DNA of 64,000 nucleotides from Alkalibacterium thalassium (GTDB lineage: Bacteria > Bacillota > Bacilli > Lactobacillales > Carnobacteriaceae_A): NCBI RefSeq assembly GCF_900101165.1, contig NZ_FNFK01000001.1:62001-126000 (forward strand), given 5' to 3'. The notes under the pieces are model-generated. The model ran no database searches, was not told where the DNA came from, and worked only from the letters and a program-made list of their open reading frames with translations. A program made the position numbers and the translations under genes. Below are positions 29,912 to 62,401 of this stretch, in pieces. Position 1 is the stretch's first letter, and every line of letters begins with the position of its first letter.

Positions 29912-29942
29912 GATAGTAACTTTAAATGTTATCTTTATATAT

Positions 29943-29989
29943 AAGAGTGGTTATGTTGTATGTCAAAGAATTTAACCACTCTTTTTTTA
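29943..29989 (+). terminator. terminator after the DUF6119 gene
   Basis: AAGAGTGGTTA pairs with TAACCACTCTT followed by TTTTT. Confidence 0.9.
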
Positions 29990-30054
29990 TATCTTCAAGT
30001 AATATATACTAATAGTTAAAGATAATCACTGAATTTAAAGGAGCAAGACCACTT

Positions 30055-30780
30055 ATGGCTAAAGAACAAACTAAAACAATTTACCAATCTTTATGGAACA
30101 GCGCTGATATCTTACGTTCAAAAATGGATGCAAGTGAGTATAAGAACTATACACTAGGATTAATTTTCTACAAGTATCTTTCAGACAACATGCTTCATCA
30201 CGTGGCTGAACTTCTTGAAAAACAAGTCAATGATTTAAAAGAGGCTCAGGAAGTTTATACAGAAGCCTTCAATGATCCTGAAATAAAAAGTGACTTGATC
30301 GATGAACTAAAATTCGATTTCTCATATGTAATAGAACCGGAGTTAACGTTCACTGCTTTGATGCAATCCATATACAAAGGTCAATTCCAGCTGGAAGATT
30401 TGGCTCAGGCATTTCGTAATATCGAGCAAAGCAGCGAATTATTTGAAGACTTATTTGAAGACATAGATCTCTATTCCAAAAAGCTAGGCGCATCTGTACA
30501 GAAGCAGAATCAGACCATTTCAGCTGTGATGAAAGAGCTTGCAACCATAGATATGGCTCACCAGGGGGATGTCTTAGGCGATGCTTATGAATATTTAATT
30601 GGCGAGTTTGCATCTGACTCTGGTAAAAAAGCCGGAGAATTTTATACACCTCAGCCAGTATCCACCTTAATGACTCAAATTGTTCTGCATGGTAAAAAAG
30701 ACAAAAAAGGGTTCACCGTATATGAGAGAATCATTCAGAAAATGATACAATTTAATAAAGCCCAAAGGTACTGTGCATAG
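30055..30780 (+). pseudogene. hsdM: type I restriction-modification DNA methylase HsdM, 5' fragment
   Basis: ATG 30055 (site AAAGGAGCAAG) starts an HsdM N-terminal helical domain (residues 1-150, TIYQSLWNSADILRSKMDASE) and the beginning of the methylase domain (AYEYLIGEFASDSGKKAGEFYTPQPVS, near 185-210). Intact HsdM would continue GFTVYDPTxGSGSLL, the SAM-binding motif. Here the match ends at GFTVY (about 30722) and unrelated codons run to TAG 30780. The NPPY motif and the rest are absent, as are hsdS and hsdR. The protein cannot methylate. Confidence 0.88.
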
Positions 30781-30894
30781 GGGTATGCAAAGTGCAAAAA
30801 GGGTATGCATTACATGGAGCCGGGATATGCCGGTTATTTTTATATCGAGAATTAAAAGACTTACATTATGATTACGTTTGAAAGAGGTGGTAAT

Positions 30895-31365
30895 GTGAAT
30901 TTAATCAACGAGATTAATACGATCATTATAGAAGTATCTTCTGTTTTAGGAAAGCCAATTGAAAAACATAACTATAAAATAATTGACAGAGGTATCCCGC
31001 ACCAACCAAAGACTCTCCCTATTCAATCGATGGGGATTTACACATTTTGGTATGATGGAGAGTTTCTAAAGATAGGGAAAGCTGGACCTAATAGCAATGC
31101 TAGATTTTTTAGCCAACACTACAATCCTAGATCAGCAAAAAGCACATTAGCAGCTTCAATTTTAGAAGATAAGGCAATGCAGGGAAAAGGCATTAATGAA
31201 GGTAATGTAGGGCAGTGGATAAAGAACAATTGTCGCAGGATTGATATTCTGCTAGATTCTGATTTAGGAATATTCTCTTTAGAACTAATAGAAGCAGCAT
31301 TACACTATAAATATGAACCTGTTTATGAAGGGTTTGCAGCACAAAGAAAAATTCATAAAGTATAA
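30895..31365 (+). CDS. GIY-YIG-like nuclease domain protein
   Basis: A protein of about 156 aa. I choose GTG 30895, shortly after AAAGAGGTGG. The segment GIYTFWYDGEFLKIGKAG (near residue 40) resembles the GIY-(x)n-(Y/K)IG core. NARFFSQHY and a later ELIEAALHYKYEPVYEG supply the Arg/His and metal-binding Glu expected of the fold. It may be a phage or defence nuclease. It sits directly after the broken hsdM. The assignment rests on motif shape only. Confidence 0.5.
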   Translation: MNLINEINTIIIEVSSVLGKPIEKHNYKIIDRGIPHQPKTLPIQSMGIYTFWYDGEFLKIGKAGPNSNARFFSQHYNPRSAKSTLAASILEDKAMQGKGINEGNVGQWIKNNCRRIDILLDSDLGIFSLELIEAALHYKYEPVYEGFAAQRKIHKV

Positions 31366-31410
31366 ATAATATCGACCATAGAAAAGGAAACTCAATATTC
31401 GGAGGTTATT

Positions 31411-32160
31411 ATAAGGGCATTATATTTGATTAAGTATGGAAAGGAAGAGCACCTAAAACAAATTGTTGATGGTTTTCTTCGATTTTCTCCATCACAGACG
31501 TACGTGGAAATGGAAGAGCTGCTCCACAATAAGGGTCAAGGTGATCTTCTGGATGGAAAAATGAAAATAAGGCTTGAGAACGCTAAAATGTACGATCCAG
31601 ATACTAATGAGCTGAAAGGAGAAATTCCAAATTGCGTAGCTACAATATCAATTCAGGATGTGAATGATATGCCTATATTTTGTATCTCTCATTATGGAGT
31701 TGATGATACCAAAAGTTATAAAAATATCAGATCCTATAAAATATCTCTTTGTCCGGACAAATTGAACTATATAAAGCAGGATTTTCGTGAGGCAACACAT
31801 GCGCTAATAATTCTTGAACCAGATAAATTTATAGCCGGAGTCCAAGCGATCAAAGGTCCTCAAATAATACACGATCAGATACGCTATTATGATTATGAAA
31901 GTAACTCGCTCCAAATGTATATGTATTTAGCCACAGGTAATACGGAGAATAAGTTTAATGAGAAGTTGACACTAACATATGAAAACAGATATCGTCATTT
32001 ATTATGTAAAGATATAGATTTTGAAAAACAGCAAGAGTACCGATTTATTGTGTTGGACGAGTTGATTACTGCACCAATTTTTTACCAGCATGAGTTTGTA
32101 TCTGAATATTTAATTGTACCAATTGATAGTTTGGAACAAGAGATAGATATAAAATTCTAG
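31411..32160 (+). CDS. unknown protein, non-standard start likely
   Basis: The frame encodes about 245-250 aa. The only good ribosome site, GGAGG 31401-31405, points to ATT 31408 or ATA 31411, not to TTG 31426, which is 20 bases away. The extra residues (RALYLIKYGKEEHL) look native. No known domain recognised. Features include LLHNKGQGDLLDGKMKI, a cysteine-poor soluble sequence and a C-terminal YRFIVLDELI. It lies 45 bases after the GIY-YIG-like gene and may share its transcript. Confidence 0.55.
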   Translation: MRALYLIKYGKEEHLKQIVDGFLRFSPSQTYVEMEELLHNKGQGDLLDGKMKIRLENAKMYDPDTNELKGEIPNCVATISIQDVNDMPIFCISHYGVDDTKSYKNIRSYKISLCPDKLNYIKQDFREATHALIILEPDKFIAGVQAIKGPQIIHDQIRYYDYESNSLQMYMYLATGNTENKFNEKLTLTYENRYRHLLCKDIDFEKQQEYRFIVLDELITAPIFYQHEFVSEYLIVPIDSLEQEIDIKF

Positions 32161-32299
32161 GTCTCCTCTTAGACTTGTTCTGTTAATGATGTGTGGTTAA
32201 TTTTTAAACATGGTATTAATGAAATCTATAATTTGGAAAAAACCGCGAATTACAATAAAGAAATAATCAGCATAGACAGTGATAGATAAGCGCTAACAT

Positions 32300-32944
32300 T
32301 TATTCTTTTATCGTAAGGTCTGCTTGTGGTGGGTTAGGATAGATTTCATTTATCAACATTACCAGAGCTTCGTTCAATTCATACCGTTCAATTTTACCTC
32401 GATACTCCAAATCACGCATGTAATCAATTGCGCTATCCATGTCTTCAAATAATCGATTCTCTCGTTTCGGCATCATTGATGTAAGATAAAGATCATGAAG
32501 GCTATTAAAAAAATTGGAGAAACCCTCAGCGGTAAGAAACTTGTTTAAGGACTTTCTATTATCTTCCCACATGTAGCTGCTATCATTTTCAGGATGTGTA
32601 ATTTCCATGATGGCTTTCAAAGCATCCCCACTTAAGCCCGTGAAATTACATGCTTTCTCCAACGAAAATGAGTTTTCATCAGTTTCACCAATTAGATATC
32701 CAATATTTACATTAAAGAAATCAGCAATGAGAACTAAGGTGTCAAACTTAGGAAAGCTAACTTCTCCGTTTTTATGGACAGCTCCGATATTCAACCATCC
32801 GCTAACAGCCTTTTGTCCATACCTAGTTCCGTATTTGGTATTTAATGCTTCCGCTAGAGAGGATTGAGTATACCCCCCAGCTTCCATGCACTTTTTCAAT
32901 CTTTCATTCCAGAATTTCGCTTTTTTCCTCAATAAGTCGTCCAT
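32300..32944 (-). CDS. XRE-type helix-turn-helix regulator
   Basis: A 214-aa protein from ATG 32944 (site AGGAGGTGTTTTATCC). The HTH occupies about residues 15-70: MEAGGYTQSSLAEALN, then VSGWLN and the typical FPKFDTLVLIADFFNVNIGYLIGE. The C-terminus has no S24 peptidase signature. It is divergent from the 33063 gene and probably represses itself and that gene; a lysogeny repressor role is possible. Confidence 0.8.
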   Translation of the reverse strand: MDDLLRKKAKFWNERLKKCMEAGGYTQSSLAEALNTKYGTRYGQKAVSGWLNIGAVHKNGEVSFPKFDTLVLIADFFNVNIGYLIGETDENSFSLEKACNFTGLSGDALKAIMEITHPENDSSYMWEDNRKSLNKFLTAEGFSNFFNSLHDLYLTSMMPKRENRLFEDMDSAIDYMRDLEYRGKIERYELNEALVMLINEIYPNPPQADLTIKE

Positions 32945-33848: not shown

Positions 33849-33875
33849 AACGAAATGTGGAGCCTTAATAGAAGA

Positions 33876-33916: not shown

Positions 33917-35509
33917 TTAGATATTTATTTCTGTCCCGTTCTTGAAAACAAAATTCATATCGTCGGCGCTATTGACTGTCACGTGCTCAATCATACTGTG
34001 CCAGAGGAGTGGATCAAAGTCTGTGAGCAGTTCATCTTGCTTCTTAAGTTCGTCGAGAAAAGCTGTCATTGTTTGGCGTCTGGTTACTTTTTCTTTAATC
34101 TGCCCGGATACATTTTCTAAATCTTCTTTGGTAGTGTCAAACCTCTGTACCAAGCCATCGTATCTTCGTTGGTACTCTCCTTGATCTAAGGCAACATTGG
34201 CGTTTTCATTAATGCATTGTTGTATCAGCTCAGTGACAATCTCCATTTCATTCTGAAGCTCGGCCTGTTTGGTTTCTAAGGGACCAGTGTCATAAAGAAT
34301 ATCCTTCATGGATTCAAAGTTTGCTATGATTTCATCTTTGTCTTCAAGGAGCTTATTAGCAGCCTTCACGAAGAGCTCTTTTAGAGTATCATCATCAAGG
34401 TGGGGAGTGGAGCATTTTTCCTGTCCTTTGAACTTGTGGTTACATTGCCATACTGTGCGTCGATATTTGCTGTTTGAATGCCATACCTTTGAACCGTACC
34501 AGCTTCCACATGAGCCACATTTTATCTTGCCAGAGAATATATGAACACCGCTGTGACGATTGTTTGCAGGGGTTCTCTTTTCTAACTCGTTCTGGACCAG
34601 GTCGAAGACCGCTGGCTCAATAATCGCTTCATGGTTATTTTCAACATAGTATTGAGGAATTTCTCCCTCGTTGGCTTTCTTCTTTTTAGTAAGAAAATCT
34701 ACGGTGTAGCTTTTCTGCAAAAGTGCATCTCCTTTATATTTTTCGTTTGTGAGGATGCGCTTGATGGTGCCTGCGTTCCACTTATCTTTCTTGGCGGGTG
34801 ATAAAATCCCCTCTGCTGTAAGCTGCTTGGCAATACCGTAAGGAGTCATGCCTTGCAGGAACATGCTGAAGATCCTCTGGATTATGACTGCTTCATTAGG
34901 GTTCAAGACAAGGTTGCCATCTTCACCCCGATCGTAACCGAGGAAGTGCCCGAAGGGAACTGTAACCTTCCCGTCTGCAAATCTCTTGCGCTGTCCCCAT
35001 GTGACGTTCTCTGAAATGCTGCGGCTTTCTTCCTGGGCAAGGGATGACATGATGGTGATTAGAAGTTCGCCTTTAGAATCTAAGGTCCAGATATTTTCCT
35101 TCTCAAAATAGATTTCGATTCCTTTCTCTTTCAATTGTCGAACGGTTGTGAGGCTGTCTACTGTGTTTCTTGCAAATCGGCTGACTGACTTGGTAACGAT
35201 AAGGTCAATCTTTCCGCTTAAGGCGTCCTGGATCATGCGCCTAAAGCCTTCACGCTTTTTGGTGTTGGTACCGGATATCCCTTCATCGGTATAAACCTTC
35301 ACGAACTCCCAGTCGTCTCGACTCTTAATAAAATTAGTGTAATAATCGACCTGCGCCTCATAGCTTGTGAACTGTTCTTCGCTGTCGGTGGATACGCGAG
35401 CGTAGCCAGCTGTGCGGCGTTTTCTTTGCTCATTAATTGGCGTGGAAGAAAACTGCCTGAGTGTAGCAGGTATGGTTTTAACGTTTTTAGTTGTCTTTGT
35501 TCTGCTCAT
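33917..35509 (-). CDS. large serine recombinase (integrase), second of a pair
   Basis: A 530-aa recombinase. The resolvase domain (about 30-180) has the nucleophile Ser in GYARVSTDSEEQ and KSVSRFARNTVDSL. Then comes the Recombinase domain (RKRFADGKVTVPFGHFLGYD to about 290), a zinc ribbon (CGSCGSWYG, with QCNHK and CSTPHLDD) and a coiled coil (about 390-480). It overlaps the upstream recombinase by 23 bases and is the last gene of the minus-strand block. Such enzymes integrate and excise phages at short att sites. Confidence 0.93.
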   Translation of the reverse strand: MSRTKTTKNVKTIPATLRQFSSTPINEQRKRRTAGYARVSTDSEEQFTSYEAQVDYYTNFIKSRDDWEFVKVYTDEGISGTNTKKREGFRRMIQDALSGKIDLIVTKSVSRFARNTVDSLTTVRQLKEKGIEIYFEKENIWTLDSKGELLITIMSSLAQEESRSISENVTWGQRKRFADGKVTVPFGHFLGYDRGEDGNLVLNPNEAVIIQRIFSMFLQGMTPYGIAKQLTAEGILSPAKKDKWNAGTIKRILTNEKYKGDALLQKSYTVDFLTKKKKANEGEIPQYYVENNHEAIIEPAVFDLVQNELEKRTPANNRHSGVHIFSGKIKCGSCGSWYGSKVWHSNSKYRRTVWQCNHKFKGQEKCSTPHLDDDTLKELFVKAANKLLEDKDEIIANFESMKDILYDTGPLETKQAELQNEMEIVTELIQQCINENANVALDQGEYQRRYDGLVQRFDTTKEDLENVSGQIKEKVTRRQTMTAFLDELKKQDELLTDFDPLLWHSMIEHVTVNSADDMNFVFKNGTEINI

Positions 35510-37211
35510 GTTTTTTCCTCCATGCCGCTTTCATTTTCTCAGCTTGCCTTTTTTTTCTTTCCTCTGACCAGGCGGGTTGTCTGCGTTTAAACTGCCATTG
35601 TTTTGTGATCTTACTGCCATCCTTCAGCTGAAAGAGAAGTTCTGTGTTGGAAACAACAGTGATGCTATCAACTTTTTCTTTAAAGATACCTTCATCAAAT
35701 TCTTTAATGGAAAGGACATCGCTAGATATAGTTTTTAACATGTTCTCTTCCAATCCGCTGTGGCCGCAATCTGTGTGAGGGGGACAGCGCCAATGGTGGG
35801 CCTTCTGACCACTTACTCGGGGGCTTGTGTTTCTGCGTAGGTTTTGCTCGCACTTACTGCAGTTTATTTTTCCGGTGAAGCAAGTGATGTTTCCAGAGCT
35901 TCTTGGGTTCTTCTTGCTGTAGGCTGATTTTGCAGCGCGAGCTTCCGGTGTCCACCAATCCTTCCTGGCCGTGGATTTCCAATGTTGAGGAATAACGCTA
36001 CCGTCATGTAAATGAAAGATGAGTTCATCTTTTCCATTCACCACAACTTTTTCGACTTGATCCAGGAAAAAATCTTCATCAAATTCTTCCAAGCCGAGTA
36101 CCTGGGCACAGGCACCTTGGAGTATCTTCTCTGGGATGTTTTTGGCGCTGCACTCTGACACGCCTTTACGGTCTTTAGTCTGGCAAGTCCAAATGTAATA
36201 AACATCACTTGAATGCTTGCTTTGTCTTTTGCCGCTGCGTCTATAGCTGACACCACAGTTTCCACACTTTATCTTGCTTGTAAAGCAGGTGGTGTTGATA
36301 GATGGATTTGCGAATACCCCCAATTCTCTGCGTCGTGCGATTTCAGCTTGTACCTTTTCATAAGTTTCTAAGTCAATTATTGCTTCGTGAGAATCTTCTA
36401 CCCAGTACTGAGGTAGTTCTCCGTTGTTGGGCTTTAACTTGTGTGTGATATGGTCCTCAATAAAACCCTTTTGTAAAAGCATGTTACCGGTATACTTTTC
36501 ATTCTTAAGGATCGCCCGAATTGAGGTGTTTGAAAAACGTCCACCGGTATATGATTTGACACCCATTTCTTCAAGCTGTACTTCTGTTTGTTCGGCGGAC
36601 ATTCCTTTGAGGAAATTATCATAAATCAGCTTTACAATCTTGGCCTCCTCTGGCTCAATAACAAAGTGCTCTCCATTCCAGCGATAGCCATAAATACAAA
36701 ATGAATTAGGCTTTCCTTTTTGGAAATTCCTTCGAATAGCCCATTTTACATTTTCACTTGTGGAGCGGCTTTCTTCCTGGGCAAAGGAAGCGAGGATGGA
36801 GAGCATCAGCTCACCGTCACCACTCATTGAATTGATATTCTCTTTCTCGAACCTTACCTCAACTCCGATGTCTCGAAGGTGGCGTACTGTTTGCAGTAGA
36901 TCTACGGTATTTCTAGCAAATCGCGATATGGACTTGGTTAGTACAATATCGATTTTGCCAGCATCACAATCTTCCAGCAGTCGCTTGAACTCATCCCGGT
37001 CTTCAGTCGTACCTGAAATCCCTTCATCTGCATAAACACCAGCATATTCCCATTCACGATGAGTCTGGATGTATTTGCTATAAAAGCTGACTTGCGCTGA
37101 AAGAGAGTGTAACGTTCTGCCTTTTTCTTCGGAAACTCTCGCATAAGCAGCAACCTTTTTTCTTGTAGGCATTACCGGAGCGGAAGGTTCGATTTTATTG
37201 ATTTTCCGCAT
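35487..37211 (-). CDS. large serine recombinase, first of a pair
   Basis: A 574-aa recombinase from ATG 37211 (site GAAAGGAGTGAG). The catalytic Ser is in AAYARVSEEKGRT near residue 20, with SISRFARNTVDLL near 90. The Recombinase domain and a zinc ribbon (CGNCGVSYRRSG) follow; a second zinc ribbon-like segment (CSKCEQNLRRN) and two repeats of a basic WKxxARKDWW / WKFKRRQPAWSEE type end the protein. Duplicated C-terminal modules are unusual. It may act with the downstream recombinase as an obligate pair. Confidence 0.92.
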   Translation of the reverse strand: MRKINKIEPSAPVMPTRKKVAAYARVSEEKGRTLHSLSAQVSFYSKYIQTHREWEYAGVYADEGISGTTEDRDEFKRLLEDCDAGKIDIVLTKSISRFARNTVDLLQTVRHLRDIGVEVRFEKENINSMSGDGELMLSILASFAQEESRSTSENVKWAIRRNFQKGKPNSFCIYGYRWNGEHFVIEPEEAKIVKLIYDNFLKGMSAEQTEVQLEEMGVKSYTGGRFSNTSIRAILKNEKYTGNMLLQKGFIEDHITHKLKPNNGELPQYWVEDSHEAIIDLETYEKVQAEIARRRELGVFANPSINTTCFTSKIKCGNCGVSYRRSGKRQSKHSSDVYYIWTCQTKDRKGVSECSAKNIPEKILQGACAQVLGLEEFDEDFFLDQVEKVVVNGKDELIFHLHDGSVIPQHWKSTARKDWWTPEARAAKSAYSKKNPRSSGNITCFTGKINCSKCEQNLRRNTSPRVSGQKAHHWRCPPHTDCGHSGLEENMLKTISSDVLSIKEFDEGIFKEKVDSITVVSNTELLFQLKDGSKITKQWQFKRRQPAWSEERKKRQAEKMKAAWRKKHEQNKDN

Positions 37212-37228
37212 AAACTCACTCCTTTCAA

Positions 37229-37262
37229 CACTATACATCACTCTAAAAGGCTATGAAGTCAA
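37229..37262 (-). promoter_or_regulatory. promoter-like element, copy C (recombinase genes)
   Basis: On the minus strand TTGACT is followed after 17 bases by GATGTATAGT with TTTTAGAGTGAT in between. This matches copies at 54511 and 55837 in position and core. It lies just upstream of the recombinase ribosome site, inside the end of the 59-aa gene. Confidence 0.5.
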
Positions 37263-37974: not shown

Positions 37975-38673
37975 TTATTCAGTTTTGATAAAGGCATCTG
38001 TAAAGCCTGCAGCTTTTACTTTGGCCAGCATAGCATCAGCATTGGACTTGACGCTGTAAGCCCCGACCTGGACCCTGTAAAGCTTCTGAGGCGGGGGAGT
38101 GGAAGGAGTAGGAGCCGTCAGCAGCTTTTTAACATCAGCCCTGAAAGTATCCATACTCTTACCATGCCTAGAAAACCAGTGACGAGGATCTCCGTGATTG
38201 CTGGCGATTTTCTTCTGATAGCCCTCGTAGTGGCCAATGATGTCTTTCTCTGTCAGGTCATAGAGTTTACAAAGGTAAGCACAAAGCTCCGTGGCTTCTT
38301 TATAAACTGTATTGAAATAAGAGGCGTCGGACAGGTTGTCTTCGCAGATTTCAAATCCGATGTGACTGTTGTTGGCGTCACCACCTGCATGCCACCCTCT
38401 ATGATCCCATGGCAGGGTCTGATAGGTAGCGACGGTTCCATTTTTAAGTTTTCCGATAAAGGCATGGACACAGACTTGTCTGCCACTTGGTCTATGCTGG
38501 TTCCAATGATTGTTGTACTGGTTTTCTCCCAAGATGCCATCATCTGGACCAACGTATCTACGTAGATATGGATTGTTAGCTCCGGTGCTGTGGACCATAA
38601 TGCCCTTGGGCTTGATTTTTCTACCTGCTTTATAGCATTCATTTTCTGTAAAGATAAGTTTTTTTAGGTTCAT
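37975..38673 (-). CDS. phage endolysin: N-acetylmuramoyl-L-alanine amidase with SPOR domain
   Basis: A 232-aa endolysin that cleaves the bond between muramic acid and the stem peptide. The Amidase_2 domain spans about 20-175, with zinc-ligand histidines in GIMVHSTG and HYEGYQKK..SNHGDPRHW, and WHAGG in between. After a proline linker (PTPSTPPP) a C-terminal SPOR-type wall-binding repeat follows (YRVQVGAYSVKSNADAML). It follows the holin region and ends the late operon. Confidence 0.92.
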   Translation of the reverse strand: MNLKKLIFTENECYKAGRKIKPKGIMVHSTGANNPYLRRYVGPDDGILGENQYNNHWNQHRPSGRQVCVHAFIGKLKNGTVATYQTLPWDHRGWHAGGDANNSHIGFEICEDNLSDASYFNTVYKEATELCAYLCKLYDLTEKDIIGHYEGYQKKIASNHGDPRHWFSRHGKSMDTFRADVKKLLTAPTPSTPPPQKLYRVQVGAYSVKSNADAMLAKVKAAGFTDAFIKTE

Positions 38674-43591: not shown

Positions 43592-45766
43592 TTAACTCCC
43601 TGCCACACCAAGGTTTCTAACTGTGACAGTATTTTGGTTCCACTGAAGCTGTGCAATAACTCTTGTCAAAATATTACCGTCAATGGTAAGAGGAATAGTC
43701 ACATCAAAAACAGCTCCTTCAGAACCTCCAAGATTTCCTGATACTTGAGAATTAAGATCGAGATCAAAATCAGTAGGTATGGCTCCTTGCATATCATCTT
43801 CTACACCACTCATCGCTTCTGTAAATCCTTCACCAATACCTTCACTCATGTTAGCGCCAATACCGGCAAATACTTTTGATGGCGACCGGATACCGAGTAC
43901 CCTTTTGACACCGCCTACTATGCCATTAACCATACTTTTTACGCGCTCACCAAGCCAACCAATCATCGATGAGATACCATCCCATAAACCTCTTGCGATA
44001 TTCCGACCCACTTCAACAATAGAAGGGAGGGCTCTACCGAGACCTAAAACTATGGCTGTAATGATTTGAGGAAGTTGAGAAACGACCTGGGGAATGGCTC
44101 TGATTAAGCCCATCCCCAGTTGAATGGTTAGCTGAACACCCATTTCAATGAGTCTGGGTAGATTGCTGGTAATAAATCCAACAATACTGTTGATGATCTG
44201 GGGCAAAGATTCAATTAGAGTAGGGAGTGCATTTAAAAGTCCTTGAGCCAATCCACTAATTAGTTGAAAGGCAGCATCCAGAATTAAGCTCATATTATCG
44301 ATTAAAGTGGTAGCAATCAAAATGACTGCTTCAATCATTGCTGGAATCAGTTCAGGCAGAGCCAATCCTAACCCTTCTACAAGAGCAGTAATTAGCTGTA
44401 TAGCCGCATCTATTAAAAGCGGCAAATTCTCAATGAGTGCTCCAACAATTGTCATGACCGCATCTACAGCTGCTGGAATCAGTTCTGGAAGTAGGCTCAG
44501 CAAGGTTTCCAGAACCTGGCTGAATAAATCCGTTACTGTACTAAGAAGAACTGGCAGAAGGTCTCCAATGGCCATAAGGATCGCATCCATTGCTGCAGGT
44601 AGAGCAGTAACCACATTTTCTAATATTGGTACAATATTAATAACTACTGACTGAAAAGCATCTACGAGATTTTGGGTTAAGTTGGTCATATCCGCATCTG
44701 CATTTCCCAGACCTGCAGTAAACGAACCTAGTGCAGCTTGTAGAAGACCTATGGAACCTGTGACGGTTTGGGTGGATTCTCTGGCAAAGTTCCCCGCATA
44801 CTGCTCCGTATTTTCAAAGAACATCTGCATGGCCACTTCAGCTTTTTCTGCATTTGTTGCCGATGCCCATGTAAAATCTAATCCTTTGGCAAGAGCATAG
44901 GCTTCGATATTTGTGGCATTCATGGCAACTCCCAAGTTATCCATCATGGTGAAGTTACCCTTAGCAGCACCAGCAACAGAATCAAGGGCAACCTGCATAT
45001 CGATGCCCATAACGGAGGCCATATCTGCAGCTCGTTGCATGGCTTTCTCCGTAAGTTCTAAACTCTTTTGTTGTTCAACACCAGAGCCTTGAAAAAGCGC
45101 TCCCATCTTATTGGCTGTGGCCAAATATTGACTCTGGGACACACCTAGATTTTTGTAGGCTTCCTCACCAGTTTTCTGAATAGAAGAAGCGTACTTTCCA
45201 AATACAGCTTCGGAACCACCAAGATTCTGTTCAAGCTCACCAAACTGCTGGACAATCTCAGTTCCAAGTTTTATAGTAGCAGCACCTGCTGCAAGAGCCA
45301 CAGAACCCATTGCAGTTCCGATCCCCTTAAGAACTCCTCCAAACTTCTCAAACTTCCCACCAGCACCTTCTGCGGACTTACCGGATTCTTCTAACTGTTC
45401 TCTGAGGTTATTCGCATCAACAGTAGAATCCTCCAGTTCCTTTTCCATTTTATTCAGATCTGCATTTGCATTATTAAGCTGAACCTGCCAGGCTTTTGTT
45501 CGCTTATCATTTTCCCCAAAGGATTCAGCGGCATTCTTCAGAGCAGCTTCAAGGGTTGTGACTTTTTCCTTTTGAGCATCGATTTCTTTGTTTAAGACTT
45601 CATTTCTAGCGGTTACTGCTTGGAGTGATTTGTCTTGCTTATCAAACTGTGAGGTAACCAGATTCATTTCTGAACCTAGTATCTTAAAGTCCTGATTAAT
45701 TTCGCGAAGTGCATTTTTAAATTCCTTTTCGCCTTCAAGGCCAATCTTCAGTCCAAAGTCTGACAT
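43592..45766 (-). CDS. tail tape measure protein
   Basis: A 724-aa protein from ATG 45766 (site GGAGGTGAAAGT). The N-terminal coiled coil (about 20-145), the TMP domain (about 180-370, with small-residue-rich MGALFQGSGVEQQKSLELTEKAM) and long hydrophobic repeats of the ALPELIPAMIEAVILIATTL kind (about 380-600) are typical. At about 0.15 nm per residue it predicts a siphovirus tail of roughly 110 nm (inference). The frame upstream of ATG 45766 runs through a terminator and is rejected. Confidence 0.92.
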   Translation of the reverse strand: MSDFGLKIGLEGEKEFKNALREINQDFKILGSEMNLVTSQFDKQDKSLQAVTARNEVLNKEIDAQKEKVTTLEAALKNAAESFGENDKRTKAWQVQLNNANADLNKMEKELEDSTVDANNLREQLEESGKSAEGAGGKFEKFGGVLKGIGTAMGSVALAAGAATIKLGTEIVQQFGELEQNLGGSEAVFGKYASSIQKTGEEAYKNLGVSQSQYLATANKMGALFQGSGVEQQKSLELTEKAMQRAADMASVMGIDMQVALDSVAGAAKGNFTMMDNLGVAMNATNIEAYALAKGLDFTWASATNAEKAEVAMQMFFENTEQYAGNFARESTQTVTGSIGLLQAALGSFTAGLGNADADMTNLTQNLVDAFQSVVINIVPILENVVTALPAAMDAILMAIGDLLPVLLSTVTDLFSQVLETLLSLLPELIPAAVDAVMTIVGALIENLPLLIDAAIQLITALVEGLGLALPELIPAMIEAVILIATTLIDNMSLILDAAFQLISGLAQGLLNALPTLIESLPQIINSIVGFITSNLPRLIEMGVQLTIQLGMGLIRAIPQVVSQLPQIITAIVLGLGRALPSIVEVGRNIARGLWDGISSMIGWLGERVKSMVNGIVGGVKRVLGIRSPSKVFAGIGANMSEGIGEGFTEAMSGVEDDMQGAIPTDFDLDLNSQVSGNLGGSEGAVFDVTIPLTIDGNILTRVIAQLQWNQNTVTVRNLGVAGS

Positions 45767-45787
45767 ACTTTCACCTCCTTCAGGGCA

Positions 45788-45812
45788 TAAAAAAAACACC
45801 TCTTACAGTGTT
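45788..45812 (-). terminator. hairpin plus T run in the tape-measure leader
   Basis: Minus strand AACAC, TGTAAGAG, GTGTT then TTTTTT, followed at once by TTATGCCC and the ribosome site. A similar leader lies before the HNH gene. Confidence 0.6.
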
Positions 45813-46436: not shown

Positions 46437-47318
46437 TTAAGAAACAACAACAGTAGCCACTGTAGTCGTCACGTTTTGTGCACCACTAGAGCTTAAGACA
46501 CAGTAGTAGTAATAGGTATCGGCCAAGAGATCTGTTGGAATATCAAAGCTGGCCGATGTCTCCCCATTAATGGCAGTACCGCCAGTGGTGCTATCAATGG
46601 TGTTTTCATACCACTGATAGGTCACTGGATTTGAAGTGTTGGAATTTGCCACAACAGAAAGGCTTCCAGAAATACTGCCTGCGGTTACTTCAGTTAAGCT
46701 TGCCGGCTGGGTTGTGATGGTTATGGTTGGGGTTACGGCTGTAAAGTCTGGTTCATATACGGATGTGAACCAGCTTGTAATTGTTGATGCCGCTACACCA
46801 TTATCTCCTTCAGTAACTTCCGCTTTCCAAGGATGTTTGCTTTCTCCGTCTAGTTTGTTTCTTCTAAAGACGGTTCCTTCTATGGTGGGACTGCTAAAAG
46901 TAATGGAGTCGCCTTTGGTGGCAAGGCTTGTGGCGGGAACAGAGAAGATAACCCTGTAGAGCCAAAAGTAGCGATATTTTCCATTGGCCTTCTTGGCACG
47001 AAACCCAACTGCCACAGGGCTACCACCATCTTCACTTCTTGAAACCACCACATTGTTGCTGTCGATTTTACATCCTGTCAAATCCTGTGCTACCAATGAT
47101 CCGATATCATCAATGCCGAGTGTCAGGGCACCACTCTTAAATTCTTTAACCACCTCGCTGGCTCCATCATCTGCATAGAGAATGGCTTCAATGAGCTCGA
47201 TGCTCAGTTCTGCAGTCATGGCTTTAGCCAGCACTTTAGGGGTGCCATAGGTTTCGATGCCATTTTGATCCTCCGTGATTTTTGCATAAAATAGAGAGTC
47301 CAATCCTATCGTTGCCAT
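46437..47318 (-). CDS. major tail (tube) protein with C-terminal Ig-like domain
   Basis: A 293-aa tail tube subunit. The N-terminal 190 residues match the phi13-type major tail protein pattern (GLDSLFYAKITEDQNG, KAMTAELSIELIEAILYADDG, FRAKKANGKYRYFWLYRV). From about 200 a bacterial Ig-like domain follows (ITITTQPASLTEVTAGSISG, VTYQWYENTIDSTTGG, TYYYYCVLSS). Such domains decorate the tail and may bind cell-surface sugars. Confidence 0.88.
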   Translation of the reverse strand: MATIGLDSLFYAKITEDQNGIETYGTPKVLAKAMTAELSIELIEAILYADDGASEVVKEFKSGALTLGIDDIGSLVAQDLTGCKIDSNNVVVSRSEDGGSPVAVGFRAKKANGKYRYFWLYRVIFSVPATSLATKGDSITFSSPTIEGTVFRRNKLDGESKHPWKAEVTEGDNGVAASTITSWFTSVYEPDFTAVTPTITITTQPASLTEVTAGSISGSLSVVANSNTSNPVTYQWYENTIDSTTGGTAINGETSASFDIPTDLLADTYYYYCVLSSSGAQNVTTTVATVVVS

Positions 47319-48970: not shown

Positions 48971-50179
48971 TTACGCTTTCTGCTGAAGCACTTTAATGGC
49001 TTCAGGCAGAATCAGTTTTCCATCCACACGCTGAGTGGCAACAAAACCTACCTGGCCAGTGGCTGCATAGAGCTCATTAAGTCTCTTGAATACTCTGCCT
49101 TGACGATCCGCAACCCAGTAGTAGCCAAAGTCACCGAAGATGATGGACTTTGCAGATGCAGCGATGGTAGGAACGTAGGACGAAGTGTAAACAGGTCTAT
49201 TCAGAATGGTATCTGGTGTTCCTGCCTGAAGTGAAGGCTGCCAGATATACTGACCCTGACCATCTTTCAGCTTCCTAATTGCCTTAATGGTGGCATCGTT
49301 CATAACGAATACGGATTTGTTTCTGTAAGGCGATTTAAGAGAGTAGAAGAGGTCCAAAATCTCATCAATGGTAATAGCTGTAGCACTTGCAGCAGTTACA
49401 CCGATCTGTGCTCCACCAGTGGCAGCAAGAATACCCGTAGGCTTACCAGAGCCATCTCCAGTAAAGAAGGCATCTTCTTCCTTGTTACCAATACGTCTTG
49501 CAAACTCCCTGGCGATATAGTTCTCAAGATTAAAGACGCTGTCATTAAGAAGCTCTTCAGATACCTTGATCATGGTACCAAGCTTATAAGCGCCTATGGA
49601 AACCTGTCCAAAGCTATCATCGCTTTCAGGAATTGCACCTTCCTCATCAATCCAAGAAGCGGTACCTTTGGAAGCCACCACTGGAATCTTACGATCGCCA
49701 GAAGCAGTGGAGATGACATTGGCCAGCTTTCTGAAGATATTCTCTTCATTAAGGGACTCAATGAGGGTACGCTCAAACTCATCTGGTACAAGGTACCCTC
49801 CTTCAGTGTCAGTACCAATCTGCAGTGCGTTCTTAATCATAGGATCGAGGCCTTCACCAGCACGGGTTCTCATGGCATTCCAGAAAGCTTTCTGGTATTC
49901 TGCAGAGGCTCTTCCGCCTTTGGATTCCATACCCTGGAAGATAGGTTTTCCGGTAAGTGGTGTGTTAAGTGGCTTTGAAAGCTCACGGTCTAGCGCTTCT
50001 TGCTTTTCAAGGCGGTCGATTTCCTTACCAAGGGCAACCACATCCGCTTCCATCTTTTCATAGGTTGCAGTGTCTTCAGCAGATACAATTCCATCTGTAC
50101 CTCTTTTGGTATCCAGGAAGGCTTTAGCAGCTTCCCAGGACTTTGCTCTTTTTTCACGCAGTTCAAGAATTTTATTCAT
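48971..50179 (-). CDS. major capsid protein, HK97 family
   Basis: A 402-aa protein. The N-terminal about 100 residues are helical delta/scaffold sequence, probably removed by the upstream protease. The HK97 fold follows (MIKNALQIGTDTEGGYLVPDEF near 110, FVMNDATIKAIRKLKDGQGQYIW near 295, and the C-terminal FVATQRVDGKLILPEA). ATG 50179 follows AGGAGGAAAACACT. Confidence 0.93.
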   Translation of the reverse strand: MNKILELREKRAKSWEAAKAFLDTKRGTDGIVSAEDTATYEKMEADVVALGKEIDRLEKQEALDRELSKPLNTPLTGKPIFQGMESKGGRASAEYQKAFWNAMRTRAGEGLDPMIKNALQIGTDTEGGYLVPDEFERTLIESLNEENIFRKLANVISTASGDRKIPVVASKGTASWIDEEGAIPESDDSFGQVSIGAYKLGTMIKVSEELLNDSVFNLENYIAREFARRIGNKEEDAFFTGDGSGKPTGILAATGGAQIGVTAASATAITIDEILDLFYSLKSPYRNKSVFVMNDATIKAIRKLKDGQGQYIWQPSLQAGTPDTILNRPVYTSSYVPTIAASAKSIIFGDFGYYWVADRQGRVFKRLNELYAATGQVGFVATQRVDGKLILPEAIKVLQQKA

Positions 50180-50198: not shown

Positions 50199-50897
50199 TT
50201 AGTGTTGAATCAAAGAAAGCCGCTTTTCTAGCGACTCAATAGGGGTGCCAGTATTCTCTTTTGCTAGTTTGGGTTTTACCTTATCCAGCAGAGAGTTGGT
50301 TACAGCTCTGCGGCTGAAGGCATAGGTAAAGTCCTCAGTCTGATTTCGTTTCTTTTCATCCTCCAAGATGCCATCAGCAAAGCCAAGCTCGATGGCCTTC
50401 TTTGCATTGAGCCAGGTTTCTGCATCCATAAGATGGGAGAGCTTTGTCCTTGATCGACCTGTCTTGATTTCGTAGGCATTGATGATGCTCTCTTTAACTT
50501 CAGAAAGCATGGCGATGGCTTTTTTCATTTCCTCGCTGTCTCCAATGGCCACCGTAAGGGGGTTATGGACCATCATGAGGGCAGTTGGTGCCATAAGCAC
50601 CGTTGTCCCCGCCATGGCGATGACTGAGGCGGCTGAGGCTGCAATACCGTCAATCTTTACGGTAACAGTACCCTTGTAATCCATCAGCATGGCGTAAATC
50701 TGACTAGCAGCAATGCAATCACCTCCTGGAGAATTGAGCCAAATAACTATGTCACCCTCACCGGCAGTAAGCTCTGCTTTAAATGCCTTAGGGGTGACAT
50801 CATCGTCAAACCATGAGTCTTCGGCAATAACGCCGTCTAGATATAGTGTTCGGACGCCAGTGTTTTCATCACGCGCCCAGTTCCAAAACTTCTTCAT
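50199..50897 (-). CDS. ClpP-like prohead protease
   Basis: A 232-aa serine protease that matures the capsid. The ClpP fold has the nucleophile Ser in IAASAASVIAMAG (near residue 92) and the His in MMVHNPLT (near 116); INSPGGD-like WLNSPGGDCIAAS is near 55. It lies between portal (4-base overlap) and capsid genes. Confidence 0.92.
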   Translation of the reverse strand: MKKFWNWARDENTGVRTLYLDGVIAEDSWFDDDVTPKAFKAELTAGEGDIVIWLNSPGGDCIAASQIYAMLMDYKGTVTVKIDGIAASAASVIAMAGTTVLMAPTALMMVHNPLTVAIGDSEEMKKAIAMLSEVKESIINAYEIKTGRSRTKLSHLMDAETWLNAKKAIELGFADGILEDEKKRNQTEDFTYAFSRRAVTNSLLDKVKPKLAKENTGTPIESLEKRLSLIQH

Positions 50898-52150
50898 TTC
50901 GGTTCCTCCGTTTCTTTGATATTTGCGAACGCGCCTGCGTCCTGTAATTTTGTCATTGCGCCGTTGATGAGGTAGAGGTCGCCACCAAAGGATTCTGGAA
51001 TTCTATCCAGATTTTCTAGCTCTCTGATATCATTGGCGCTCATCCAGCCATTCTGCCGGGCAGTAGCATAGCCACTCATACGACTTACATAGTCACCACG
51101 CAGAAGGCCATCCACATTAAACTTGATAAACACATTAGGTTTCTCGCTTTCCATAAGCAGTGCCCTACACATGGACTGTTCCCAGCGGACCACCCAAGGG
51201 TCGAGAGTGTATTTTACGAACTCAAGTGATTGCTGTTCGATGTTACTAAAGGATGACTTCTCTAAATCAGCAAGCATATGAGGGGGCACTCTAAAGATAC
51301 GAGCGATCTCATTGATCTGAAACTTTCTGGTTTCAAGGAACTGTGCCTGCTCAGGAGATATACCTATAGGCTGATACTTCATACCTTCCTCAAGGACAGC
51401 TACCCGGTGGGCATTACCACTTCCTTGATAAGCTGCATTCCAGGATTCTTTTATCCTTGCAGGGTCCTTGATAGTACCAGGATGTTCCAGGACACCACCC
51501 GGTGAAGCACCATTAGCAAAAAACTTAGCTCCATATTCTTCAGTAGCTATGGCTAGGCCCACAGCATTTTTTGCCATGGCAATGGGTGAATAACCTACCA
51601 GTCCGTCAAAGCCAAGTCCTGGGATATGAAGGACGTCTGATGGTGAAAGATACACTTGATGCTCTTTGCCAAGAGTAGGGACATCCTCATTGCCACGCTG
51701 GTACAAATAGAAAAGCCGACCACTTGAATCGCGATCGACCGTCATTTTGTTTGGCATGAGTGGGTAGAGAGAAATCACTTCACCACGTGCATTTCTAATT
51801 ATCTGAGCATAGGCATTTCCCCATAATAAAAGATGACTCATTAGCGTCTCTCTAAACGCAAAAGAAGTCATCTCAGGGTTTGGTTCATCATGAAGCAGTT
51901 TATATAGCGGGTGTTTTAAGTTTTTCTCCTTGCCACCTGAATCGTTGTATTTGTAGACATGAAGTGGTATACCCGCCAGCGTCTCAGATAAGATTCTCAC
52001 GCAGCTGTACACTGCGGTCATCTGCATGGCGGTTTGCTCATTGACCGGTTTTCCAGCACTAGTACTTCCAAAAAAGAAGCTGTATCGGCTGCCACCAAGA
52101 GCATCTTTAGGCTTATCACGTGCCTTGAATATTCCTTGCAGTATTCCCAT
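50894..52150 (-). CDS. portal protein, HK97 family
   Basis: A 418-aa portal that forms the DNA entry ring. HK97-type motifs are MTAVYSCVRILSETLAGIPLHVY near residue 42, LLLWGNAYAQIIRN, and FSNIEQQSLEFVKYTLDPW. I choose ATG 52150, 9 bases after GGAGG; ATG 52156 is too close to the site. Confidence 0.93.
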   Translation of the reverse strand: MGILQGIFKARDKPKDALGGSRYSFFFGSTSAGKPVNEQTAMQMTAVYSCVRILSETLAGIPLHVYKYNDSGGKEKNLKHPLYKLLHDEPNPEMTSFAFRETLMSHLLLWGNAYAQIIRNARGEVISLYPLMPNKMTVDRDSSGRLFYLYQRGNEDVPTLGKEHQVYLSPSDVLHIPGLGFDGLVGYSPIAMAKNAVGLAIATEEYGAKFFANGASPGGVLEHPGTIKDPARIKESWNAAYQGSGNAHRVAVLEEGMKYQPIGISPEQAQFLETRKFQINEIARIFRVPPHMLADLEKSSFSNIEQQSLEFVKYTLDPWVVRWEQSMCRALLMESEKPNVFIKFNVDGLLRGDYVSRMSGYATARQNGWMSANDIRELENLDRIPESFGGDLYLINGAMTKLQDAGAFANIKETEEPK

Positions 52151-52168
52151 GGACATCAACCTCCTTTC

Positions 52169-53734
52169 CTAAAATACGAATAGTCCTCTGTCATCATAAA
52201 CAGAATTACCAGTTTCTCCGCCACAGCGAATCGCTCGGTCAAGAGCCATGATCGTGGCAACAGCACCGTCAATCTTTTCTGTGGATTTCTCTTTGTCTGC
52301 TTTGATATTCCCAGCAGGATCAGTTCTAATAAAAATGTTATCCATCATCCAGCGGAGAACAGGATGACCACCGTGAGCGATTTTTTCTTCCAAAGTCAGC
52401 TTCATTAATTCTTTTGTAGGCGGAGACATGTCTTTAAATCCCTGACCAAAAGGGACAACGGTGAACCCTAAATTTTCTAGGTTCTGTGTCATCTGAACTG
52501 CTCCCCAGCGGTCAAAGGCAATCTCACGGATGTTATATTTCATCCCAAGCTCCTCAATGAATGTCTCAATGAATCCATAGTGAACAACATTGCCTTCGGT
52601 AGTTAGAAGGAAGCCTTGTTTTTCCCAAACATCATAATTCACATGATCCCGTCTAACCCTAAGGTCTATGCTGTCTTCCGGTATCCAGAAGTAAGGGAGT
52701 ATCACATATTTGTCGTCTTCATCCTGTGGTGGGAAGACAAGTACGAAGGCTGTTATGTCAGTGGAAGAAGAAAGATCCAAACCACCATAGCAGACGCGAC
52801 CTTTGAGGCTTTCTGGATTAACGGGGAAAGCACAGGCATCCCATTTGTCCATGGGCATCCAGCGAATAGCCTGCTTAACCCATTGATTGAGTCGTAGTTG
52901 CCTGAAGCTGTTTTCTTCAGCAGGGTTTTGTCTTGCTGACTCATAAGCCATTTTTACTTTATCCATGCTGACAGTGATGCCGAGGGATGGATTTGCTTTC
53001 TTCCAGACCTTTGGATCAGACCAGTCATCTTCAAGATCTGCGCCATAAATGACGGGGTAGAAGGTAGGATCGTTCTTTCTTCCTGCCATGATATCCAGTG
53101 CTTTTTGATGAACCTCCCAGCAGATACTGTTTTGATTATCTCCAGCAGTGGTGATTAAAAAGTACAAGGGCTGCATCCTGGCATCACCACTACCTTTGGT
53201 CATAACATCATAGAGCTTTCGGTTTGGTTGAGTGTGGAGCTCATCGAAGACAACGCCATGGGTGTTGAAGCCGTGCTTGTTTCCTACATCCGCTGAAAGC
53301 ACTTGATAAATGCTTCCGGTGGGTTGGTAGATAAGTCTTTTTTGTGAGTCCAGAATCTTTACCCGCTTGGATAAGGCAGGGCACATTCGCACCATATCAG
53401 CAGCCACGTTAAAAACGATGGAGGCTTGGTTACGATCTGCAGCGCAGCCATAAACCTCAGCACGTTCTTCGTTATCTCCGCAGGTTAAGAGCAGGGCAAC
53501 AGCCGCTGCAAGCTCACTTTTTCCCATCTTCTTTGGTATCTCTACATAAGCTGTATTAAACTGGCGATAGCCATTTGCTTTTATGGTTCCAAATAAATCC
53601 CGGATGATTTGCTCTTGCCAATCTATCAGTTCAAAGGGTTTCCCAGCCCAGGTTCCTTTGGTGTGGGAGAGGCATTCAATAAAACCTACTGCATAGTCCG
53701 CCATCTCCTTGCTGTAATAGGAATCCTTCGCCAT
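52169..53734 (-). CDS. terminase large subunit
   Basis: A 521-aa (or longer) packaging motor and nuclease. Walker A-like IPKKMGKSELAAA is near residue 68 and Walker B GVVFDELH near residue 163. The nuclease domain has GGLDLSSSTDITAFVLVF near 313 and a later acidic site. ATG 53734 has no ribosome site. The frame stays open upstream through IRKLKKYKPTSY, a typical terminase N-terminus, and AAGGAGG near 53780 points to ATC 53770, a non-standard start. Confidence 0.92.
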   Translation of the reverse strand: MAKDSYYSKEMADYAVGFIECLSHTKGTWAGKPFELIDWQEQIIRDLFGTIKANGYRQFNTAYVEIPKKMGKSELAAAVALLLTCGDNEERAEVYGCAADRNQASIVFNVAADMVRMCPALSKRVKILDSQKRLIYQPTGSIYQVLSADVGNKHGFNTHGVVFDELHTQPNRKLYDVMTKGSGDARMQPLYFLITTAGDNQNSICWEVHQKALDIMAGRKNDPTFYPVIYGADLEDDWSDPKVWKKANPSLGITVSMDKVKMAYESARQNPAEENSFRQLRLNQWVKQAIRWMPMDKWDACAFPVNPESLKGRVCYGGLDLSSSTDITAFVLVFPPQDEDDKYVILPYFWIPEDSIDLRVRRDHVNYDVWEKQGFLLTTEGNVVHYGFIETFIEELGMKYNIREIAFDRWGAVQMTQNLENLGFTVVPFGQGFKDMSPPTKELMKLTLEEKIAHGGHPVLRWMMDNIFIRTDPAGNIKADKEKSTEKIDGAVATIMALDRAIRCGGETGNSVYDDRGLFVF

Positions 53735-61031: not shown

Positions 61032-62401
61032 TTAGATTTTCAGATCTGCCTTTACGGCATTGATTAGTGCAGCTTGGGTGCTGTTCTTTTCTCTTAGTGC
61101 TTTAAGAATACGTGCATCGATGGTGTCCTTGGTAATGATGTGTTGAACAACAACGGTATTTTCTGTTTGTCCTTGTCTCCATAGACGGGCATTGGTTTGC
61201 TGGTAGAGTTCCAAGCTCCAGGTCAGACCAAACCAAATGAGAGTGGAGCCGCCTTGTTGAAGGTTCAGGCCATGTCCTGCAGAAGCGGGGTGTATTAAAG
61301 CTACAGGTAATTCACCACTGTTCCAGCTCCTAATGCTTTCAGAAGAATCAAGGCGAGAGAACTTTATTTTATTGTGCCTCAGCCTTTCTGTGATGCGCTC
61401 AAGGTCATGCCTAAACCAATAGGCAACCAGGACGGGCTTTCCATTAGCGGCTTCAATTAGATCTTCTAGTGCATCCAGCTTTCTGTCATGGATTCTGATT
61501 ATCTCTTGAGTATCGGAGTAGACAGCTCCATTGGCCATTTGAGACAGTTTACCAGAAAGAGAAGCAGCATTGGCTGCGGTGATATCTCCACCAGGAAGCT
61601 GAAGGACCAGGTCGCGCTTTAATTCCTCATAGCGTTTACGCTCTGGTTCTGATAGCTTTACTGGATACTCTGAACTGATGAGTTCTGGCATCTTCAAATG
61701 GTCAGTGGATTTCATGGATATGGTAATGTCGGAAATCTGTCGGTAGATGGCATCTTCTGCAAAGGGTAGAGGCTTGTAACTAAAGATAATCTGGCCATTA
61801 CGCTTATCTGGAATAAAGTAGTCGTCTCGATACTTGCCAATGAATCTACCCAGGCGTTTACCCATATCCAGAAGCCTAAACTCAGCCCATAGATCCATGA
61901 GTCCGTTTCCTGTAGGAGTACCAGTTAAACCCACCACTCTTTTGATGTGGGGACGAACTTTCATCAGGGCTTTAAATCTTTTAGATTTGTGATTCTTAAA
62001 GGATGAAAGCTCGTCGATGATCACCATGTCATAGTTGAAAGGGATGCCGCTGTCTTCCACAAGCCACCGGACATTTTCTCTGTTGATGATGTAGATATCA
62101 GCTTTCTTCATAAGTGCAGCTTTTCTTTCTGATTCAGTACCAATAGCTACTGACCAGATAAGATGGTCTAGGTGTGACCATTTCTCAAGTTCTTGGGGCC
62201 ACGTATCTCGTGCCACACGAAGAGGGGCAACCACCAAAACCTTATGAACCTTAAAGCTGTCAAAGAGTAAATTGCTTATAGAGGTAAGGGTCAGCACAGT
62301 TTTTCCTAACCCAAGCCCATATCAAGAAATATGGCAGCAATAGGATTGTTTTCGATGTAGGCACTTGCGTATTGCTGATAATCATGTGGTATGAACTTCA
62401 T
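61032..62401 (-). pseudogene. SNF2-family helicase, frameshifted in Walker A
   Basis: ATG 62401 (site GGAGGTGATGCCAA) starts a phage SNF2 helicase (KFIPHDYQQYASAYIENNP, FLDMGLG) that hits TAG at 62306-62308. Five extra bases (62310-62314 region, TTGGG on the minus strand) split MGLGKT. The other frame resumes as LGKTVLTLTSISNLL and continues to 61032 with all later motifs: DELSSFKN, GLTGTPTGNG, and QGGSTLIWFGLTWSLELYQQTNARLWRQGQ. It is either a real lesion or a sequencing error. Intact members aid phage replication or recombination. Confidence 0.8.

Follow-up and report, generated by a model that had tools for sequence, protein, structure and literature searches.

A type I methyltransferase gene, hsdM, ends abruptly in the window (the whole stretch of 64,000 nucleotides analysed here, G000:C61:62001-126000 of a 2.36-Mb draft genome), and the question raised by this locus is what has cut the gene, and why at that point. 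The sequence-only reading had placed a prophage attachment site within hsdM, at 30700-30895; this is supported by the present analysis, in which both junctions, and the prophage between them, have been located. The match to HsdM ends before the SAM motif, as had been noticed: 30055-30723 codes for residues 1-223, which match Pfam HsdM_N (5.5e-24) and, over profile positions 2-51 of 311 only, N6_Mtase, while the break falls directly after VY, at 30723, ahead of the motif DPTMGSG. The N-terminal half, as it stands in the window (30055..30725, plus strand), comprises these residues and the first two bases of the Asp codon.

A search of the same genome placed the rest of the N6_Mtase profile (positions 51-310, or 52-310 in the Pfam scan of right halves) at C61:150184-150951, on the same strand. 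This second half, reading DPTMGSGSLLL..., lies on the same contig, 57,463 bp downstream of the first. Host sequence resumes at C61:150187 (L010:18187) as DPTMGSGSLLLN..., and the right junction reads ...AACATA-GATCCAACAATGGGATCG, i.e. DPTMGSGSLLLNVQKY, with an open frame of 320 aa. The C-terminal half is followed on its 3' side by full-length HsdS (388 aa) and HsdR (1019 aa), both matched by PADLOC profiles over nearly their whole length; hsdM (in halves), hsdS and hsdR of the target type I restriction-modification (R-M) system are all present together, and the prediction that hsdM would resume from its SAM motif at the other prophage end, followed by hsdS and hsdR, is borne out from C61:150187 onward. 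Related genomes hold unbroken homologues, with open frames of 542 aa (G026), 575 aa (G011), 540 aa (G028) and others, and G011 reads GTATAT-GAT-CC where the break falls in the studied genome. Because the other half is on the same contig and relatives have the gene uninterrupted, the cut is, to judge from the assembled DNA, real and reciprocal. In a further related genome, the homologous hsdM is split by an apparent frameshift in an A-rich stretch just before the motif (G019:C2:185328-185343, L013), perhaps a slippage switch.

At the left end stands GTATATGAGAG, at the right GAACATAGATCC; set against the unbroken gene of a relative, the left side matches up to and including GA and the right side from GA onward. 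The only bases common to both ends are GA, found at window 30724-30725 (plus strand) and at C61:150187-150188, again 57,463 bp apart; we presume this dinucleotide to be the point of crossover, and the core of attL. The short sequence GTATATGA, previously suggested as a duplicated crossover, is not duplicated and is ruled out, the two ends having just GA in common. A core of two bases fits serine recombinases. The sites compared by alignment had been picked for GA, and their agreement at these two bases is no separate evidence for the core.

Sequence 3' of the break had been read as foreign to hsdM, and indeed the phage end begins at 30724, its first bases being conserved in two relatives, G375 and G009. 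The phage half of attL (30724..30755, plus strand), with the arm GA-N17-TGATACAATTTAA, forms an inverted repeat with the right end, and the same arm recurs in relatives. Two left-end cargo ORFs follow on the plus strand, one of 165 aa (30868..31365), without Pfam match and replaced by other genes in G009, the other of 244 aa (31426..32160), without Pfam or PADLOC match. A repressor-like helix-turn-helix protein, conserved in G009, is encoded on the minus strand (32300..32944; HTH_3, E 0.00039, below the Pfam cut-off), as are the genes described next. Serine recombinases had been noted to the right of the break, and two large serine recombinases (LSRs) were found there along with tailed-phage genes: LSR1, the presumed integrase (33917..35509, 530 aa; Pfam Resolvase, Recombinase and Zn_ribbon_recom; PHROG 95, integrase), and its partner LSR2 (35487..37241, 584 aa; Pfam Resolvase, Recombinase and zinc ribbon; PHROG 95). 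A second recombinase gene adjoins LSR1 in 49 of 56 listed relative loci, several of the other 7 being cut by contig ends.

Packaging, head, tail and endolysin genes were recognized by PHROG: endolysin (37975..38673; PHROG 15001, 4.4e-81), tail tape measure protein (43592..45799; PHROG 58), major tail protein (46437..47318; PHROG 88), major head protein (48971..50179; PHROG 10), head maturation protease (50199..50897; PHROG 94), portal protein (50894..52159; PHROG 12) and terminase large subunit (52169..53734; PHROG 9, 6.7e-189), besides a phage DNA helicase (61032..62297; PHROG 62). The phage IMGVR 517045, assigned in its record to Ca. Heliusvirales, matches window 28000-46000 in two megablast pieces, at 85.5% and covering 16% of that region; a blastn comparison over 44.6 of its 57.2 kb gave seven pieces at 66-81%. 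On account of these matches and of the structural, packaging and lysis genes just listed, we take the 57,463 bp between the hsdM halves to be a tailed prophage. It extends past the window to attR at C61:150188, beyond which hsdM (DPTMGSG...), hsdS and hsdR are found.

When the two ends are joined, the resulting attP shows an inverted repeat, imperfect but in register about GA: TTGTATCA-N17-GA-N17-TGATACAA. Matches occur at 17 of 30 positions, which 68 of 20,000 shuffles reach, and the longest matching run is 8, equalled in length by 37 of 20,000 shuffles. As a prediction from this join, the full pattern was looked for in IMG/VR viral contigs and found four times; in two of these (L254 and L257) it lies about 1 kb and 0.15 kb from LSR1 relatives (62%), while the other two are without an LSR1 relative in the DNA examined.

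We propose that LSR1, perhaps with LSR2, integrates the 57,463-bp prophage by crossover at GA, in the codon for the Asp of the SAM motif. Insertion would part the SAM motif of HsdM from its N-terminus and from the upstream side of the operon, and for this reason the type I system should be off during lysogeny; exact excision should restore it, HsdS and HsdR being otherwise full-length. That LSR1 is the responsible enzyme, that R-M is off, that the element excises and that the phage benefits, we infer. In the branch of LSR1 relatives that share the attP arm, attachment would likewise take place at DPxxGSG, or at DPPY in type III Mod, across methyltransferase families. We regard it as very probable that an LSR-integrated prophage sits in hsdM at the GA of the Asp codon, and that this arm-sharing branch uses the catalytic-motif codons of whichever methyltransferase family offers them. 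Read directly from the DNA are the two ends with their 2-bp core, the attP arms, and an attP that stands unoccupied in phage contigs; the same codon is cut in at least five kinds of methyltransferase, and integrases that are nearly identical occur in different kinds.

The wider part of this proposal was drawn from 161 loci, made up of the best 80 LSR1 relatives from named genomes, the best 80 from viral contigs, and L078; at least 1 kb of 3' flank is available in 122 of them. On the strand opposite to LSR1 and 3' of it, a script looked for GA-N17-TGATACAA where the frame leading into GA stays open for at least 30 codons; no methyltransferase motif was demanded. Perfect arms, with 8 of 8 matches, were found at 38 sites in the expected orientation, versus none in the reversed sequence and none on the other strand; allowing 7 or 8 matches, the 161 loci gave 63 sites versus 3 and 7 in the two controls. 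DNA methyltransferases hold 34 of the 38 perfect-arm ends (32 of 36 without the duplicate records L165 and L185). Recognition was by Pfam above cut-off in 11 cases, by PADLOC in 11 (L167 weakly), and in the other 12 indirectly: L085, L186 and L199 through the right half in L085's genome, the rest through similarity to those already recognized. The four ends outside recognized methyltransferases lie in a BspA-type LRR gene (L116), in a serine recombinase gene (L142) and, for L094 and L212, in sequences without identification.

At 18 further loci the best arm has 7 of 8 matches, and 11 of these are in methyltransferases, 7 not. Among the 56 loci with 7 or 8 arm matches, four (L102, L103, L151, L218) were taken as chance and two (L215, L216) as serine-recombinase-like by eye, all six standing outside the methyltransferase counts; best sites with 6 of 8 matches were left out of the counts. 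Altogether, with the 7/8 arms and L101 included, methyltransferase loci number 46 of 161, or 43 without the duplicates L165, L185 and L194, L152 being assigned by eye only. For L101, the site at 15550, in a uracil methyltransferase gene, was discarded as a chance match, the likely true site being an hsdM cut with an imperfect arm. The script gave no site at 73 of the 161 loci, and the methyltransferase rule, as far as sequence can show it, is therefore limited to LSR1 relatives with this attP arm. At L116:2848, L142:5671 and L215/L216:11727, relatives whose arm resembles it (GATATGTA.. or GAAATGTA..) lie in BspA-type LRR or serine-recombinase-like genes and may form a sub-lineage of different specificity.

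Judged by the residue at which pairwise and profile alignments end, the cut falls in the catalytic motif (DPxxGSG or DPPY), at its Asp or Glu codon. Targets are of at least five kinds: type I HsdM, BREX PglX, type III Mod, MmeI-like type IIG, and a large-polyvalent-protein type. Thus, in Acetobacterium dehalogenans (L079), whose LSR1 is 94% identical to the studied one, the same phage end is found in a pglX gene beside brxC, not in hsdM; PADLOC recognized BrxC at this locus, and BrxC with BrxA/BrxB at L115. Type III Mod is cut just before DPPY at L080/L165 and L082, and another N6-methyltransferase, weakly typed as IIG, is cut at L167. The type could not be assigned for L152, L172 and L177, the last of which matches both type I and type II profiles.

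Right ends were sought in 25 genomes or records with the pattern TTGTATCA-N17-GANCC, which gave 15 matches in 13 of them, versus 2 for the reversed pattern. In 10 of the 15, one being the studied genome, the frame from GA begins DPxxG, DPPYNTG, DPPFNTG or EPSCGTG, although the GANCC of the pattern favours a proline codon and starts in DP are not a blind result. Left and right halves agree in type within a genome for L083/L253 and L137/L241 (HsdM), L093/L251, L109/L248 and L134/L245 (Mod), L085/L246, and, by eye, L119/L242. They disagree in G130 (left Mod, right HsdM-like) and G129 (left HsdM, right MmeI-like), which must therefore hold further elements. Where both ends share a contig they are about 52.9 kb (L083), 55.7 kb (L085) and 55.3 kb (L134) apart. 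Nine right halves were scanned with Pfam, L242 (the G134 right half), with a stop after 28 codons, standing outside the scan. Four of the nine (the studied genome, L241, L243 and L253) match from N6_Mtase position 52; L244 matches best to MmeI_Mtase from position 25, with N6_Mtase position 52 as a lower match; L245, L248 and L251 match from N6_N4_Mtase position 7, and L246 starts later.

We also scanned 398 genomes of the phylum by DNA pattern, with no protein as guide. The left-arm pattern GA-N16-TTGATACAATTTAA, of which the studied genome's own left end is not an exact fit, gave 8 matches (control 1), 6 of them in methyltransferases: four HsdM (29-43% to the studied HsdM), and, both by eye, one Mod and one N6/IIG-like. 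The remaining two are in no recognizable gene, one at a contig edge, the other without a reading frame. The right-arm pattern TTGTATCAAA-N13-TAGA, which places no demand on the bases that follow, gave 26 matches in 23 genomes (control 7); in seven, one being the studied genome, a methyltransferase motif follows in frame, as judged by eye, whereas two (L275, L289) look like decayed motifs and 17 look like chance. Both ends were found on one contig in G375 and G274, 56,956 bp and 53,675 bp apart. No LSR was found near the left ends of G338 (in about 8 kb), G350 (about 2.6 kb), G486 (about 1 kb) and G156 (an 8-kb stretch), and the sole LSR found in G339 is distant, with 24-27% identity; in these five the element is either decayed or cut off by contig ends. 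G156 also features a 2,962-bp remnant (G156:C1:1125370-1128332, L301), both of whose ends lie in an N6-methyltransferase gene; no recombinase turned up there, and the remnant has the look of a phage scar.

Why methyltransferases should be hit is a separate matter, and the reading that survives best among the alternatives, to which we give somewhat less than an even chance, is that of a safe-harbour habit: these are abundant, non-essential genes with a very conserved DNA stretch, and loss of defence would be a side effect. Such is the usual logic of att sites. The host retains a further HsdM, whose open frame runs to 534 aa (G000:C78), and at L085, L186 and L199 the targets belong to the large polyvalent proteins, not to any known defence system. 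The available text of Durrant et al. (2022, PMC10083194) reports that LSR targets are not enriched within or near anti-phage defence genes. Left unexplained are the fact that nearly the same enzyme strikes unrelated families, at motif I of N6_Mtase and at DPPY of Mod, and the R-M genes of their own that several elements bring.

Near its right end, the studied prophage encodes its own HsdS and HsdR along with two HsdM-like proteins (L010:4228-12270), and the G375 prophage a type III Mod and Res pair (L294:8048-13072). We searched 12 right-end stretches with R-M proteins and, besides the studied prophage, 5 of the 12 hold a clear methyltransferase and restriction subunit: G009 (L077), G135 (L305, HsdR by eye), G274 (L311), G134 (L313) and G375 (L294). 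The G134 element is about 20 kb long and may not be a phage. Weaker cases are L309, where both subunits match weakly, L306 and L312, each with a single weak Mod-like match, and L307 and L310, with helicase-like matches only; no R-M protein matched in L304 and L308, both of which are short stretches. Two details of this cargo deserve mention. The HsdM-like protein at L010:4228-6702 has 824 aa, with the best PADLOC match to type I methyltransferases at 334-783 and, by eye, an ADP-ribosylglycohydrolase in its first 330 residues, a fusion that would be odd. An element inserted in a type III mod gene (L305:753-10537) carries, immediately inward of its right end, HsdM, HsdS and HsdR together with what looks by eye like a McrB/McrC-like pair.

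A bolder interpretation, which we offer tentatively and hold to be rather unlikely, is that the integrase lineage evolved as counter-defence, reading the catalytic-motif codons of defence methyltransferases of any family. Each lysogenization would take out one R-M or BREX system and spare the cell the self-killing that follows in type II systems when only the methyltransferase is lost, and the prophage would often substitute its own R-M, so that host and later progeny bear the DNA marks of the phage. In types I, III and IIG and in BREX the methyltransferase is also required for restriction; its knock-out should therefore be safe for the cell.

The same safety underlies a less probable explanation, according to which the integrase is loose in specificity and insertions in methyltransferases are merely the survivors, since their loss is harmless or useful; the bias would then come from selection, not from the site. 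Insertions outside methyltransferases exist (L116, L142 and perhaps L094 and L212). Moreover, DNA weight matrices, class-balanced and trained without the tested class, lack the power to predict Mod sites from the other classes, about 1,800 to 13,700 better sites per 2.5 Mb being found, and they are poor for HsdM (0 to about 1,600 better sites per 2.5 Mb), although the LP and IIGb sites, one example each, were found cleanly, with no better background site. As a full account of targeting the matrices thus fail for Mod and are weak for HsdM. Against a bias due to selection stands the position of the cuts: a selected knock-out would take any position in a gene, yet the cuts lie at the same codon, in a scan that asked just for GA, the arm and an open frame. 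As the cut lies in the Asp or Glu codon, whose first two bases are GA, something in the DNA must be read. We infer that attB is degenerate, perhaps recognized by many weak contacts over DNA coding for a hydrophobic strand and then D-P-x-x-x-S/T-G; selection may sharpen the methyltransferase bias.

Very unlikely, in our judgement, is the narrower view that hsdM is the single attachment gene of this phage, as rumA or comK are for other phages, and that nothing wider is involved. The target is hsdM in the studied genome, G009 and G375, and in streptococcal ICEs serine integrase triplets insert in hsdM, mutT or traG, with direct repeats of 2-8 bp, according to the available parts of Ambroset et al. 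(2016, PMC4701971). This view is contradicted by near-identical integrases with different targets. LSR1 proteins 94% identical to each other are found at the studied HsdM and at the PglX of L079; G375, with LSR1 94% and LSR2 97% identical to those of the window, has as its target an HsdM only 29% identical to the studied one over the N-terminal half. LSRs 97-98% identical are found in Mod (L134) and in another N6-methyltransferase (L229 and L238, by Pfam below cut-off or pairwise matches only), LSRs 94% identical in HsdM (L173) and in a HSDR_N_2/N6 protein (L177), and LSRs 93% identical in the polyvalent protein of L085 and in L172. On a tree of 47 LSR1 proteins, target class, in 8 groups, changes 23 times, the minimum being 7 and the mean of the shuffles 28.5, with none of 200 shuffles as low; on this quick tree, in which 15 of 43 inner branches are open, target classes appear mixed, yet partly clustered, and the clustering weighs against the wide reading.

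The element itself is an LSR prophage, and as such of a known kind. It resembles the streptococcal ICEs, as described in the text available (PMC4701971), in the large serine recombinases placed in a row, the short repeats, the disrupted hsdM and the genes sometimes found between integrases and target; it differs in being a tailed phage, and in having two recombinase genes in the window, not three. The ICEs have separate specificities for separate elements in that account, whereas the LSR1 lineage takes pglX, mod, MmeI-like and other genes at the same codon. In the accessible portions of Durrant et al. (PMC10083194), multi-targeting is assigned when LSRs clustered at 90% have more than 3 target clusters at 50% identity, and 63% of the multi-targeting clade has DUF4368. 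The core dinucleotide, and near-identical LSRs with different target gene clusters, are common to those enzymes and to ours; LSR1 and LSR2 differ from the clade, as described there, in having no DUF4368 by Pfam and in that their recognized targets are nearly all DNA methyltransferases. The LSR1 set at about 94% identity has three target clusters (the studied hsdM, the A. dehalogenans pglX and the G375 hsdM); a candidate fourth, in G350, has the same arm, with no LSR in the 2.6 kb available.

The Streptococcus suis rum prophages (phi-SsuFJNP3_rum, Phi-m46.1 type; MN270260) carry a related recombinase, with 80% DNA identity over 128 bases. A 2-bp GA core is cited for Phi-m46.1 in the available text of PMC10269897, which places the rum junction at the 3' end of rumA (HHVEC) and not at its DPPR motif; these prophages follow a different rule, and a link to the RumA DPPR motif was accordingly rejected, the junction sequence being at the gene's 3' end.

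In active lysogeny, as with the Listeria comK prophage, a gene is split exactly and restored by excision. The exact split of hsdM, which excision would likewise restore, is comparable. Site-specific phage integration in one conserved gene has long been known; a lineage with sites at the active-site codon of unrelated defence methyltransferases is new. Our literature search, in which subscription journals were thinly covered and bioRxiv was absent, found no paper whose title or abstract points to LSRs with targets across the defence methyltransferases, and the cross-methyltransferase rule is not described in the available text of PMC9652813, PMC12829572, PMC10269897 and PMC7168690. If the rule holds, lysogeny directly alters the R-M and BREX set of a bacterium, which bears on the loss and swapping of defence systems; split methyltransferase genes become readable as phage scars, and the DNA specificity of the integrase becomes a well-defined puzzle. 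The rule contrasts with the absence of enrichment of LSR targets in defence genes reported by the large survey, and one enzyme targeting across gene families would be of interest to those seeking integrases for genome engineering.

Finally, we give practically no credence to the idea of two nested or tandem elements, with the true prophage ending at about 33.85 kb or before the right-end R-M genes and the remainder being separate islands: although both ends carry genes that differ between relatives, G375 and G009 conserve the outermost 86-122 bp of the element at the left junction and the outermost 259-284 bp at the right one, the variable genes lying inward of both, and the element holds one perfect left and one perfect right arm, at its ends, with one-mismatch sites scattered as by chance. 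An att site at 33.85 kb, the competing placement named by the sequence-only reading, was not found and is rejected on these same grounds, the phage end starting at 30724.

Some other features of the ends and their surroundings may be recorded. The left-end cargo of the G009 element includes a 538-aa protein with a TIR-like start by eye and no PADLOC match (L078:7581-9197). At G009:C3:1-86 (L077), the right phage end is followed by GATCCAA, as in hsdM, and then by unrelated DNA to the contig edge, perhaps an IS in the C-terminal half of hsdM. An ORF near the right end of the studied prophage (L010:16964-17752) resembles, by eye, an APH-type phosphotransferase. On the host side, a DUF6119 protein (Pfam PF19614, 1.3e-121) is encoded at window 28226-29911, directly upstream of the hsdM operon, and at 24146-25740 a short transposase precedes a TnpB-like ORF, the two looking by eye like an IS200/IS605-type pair.
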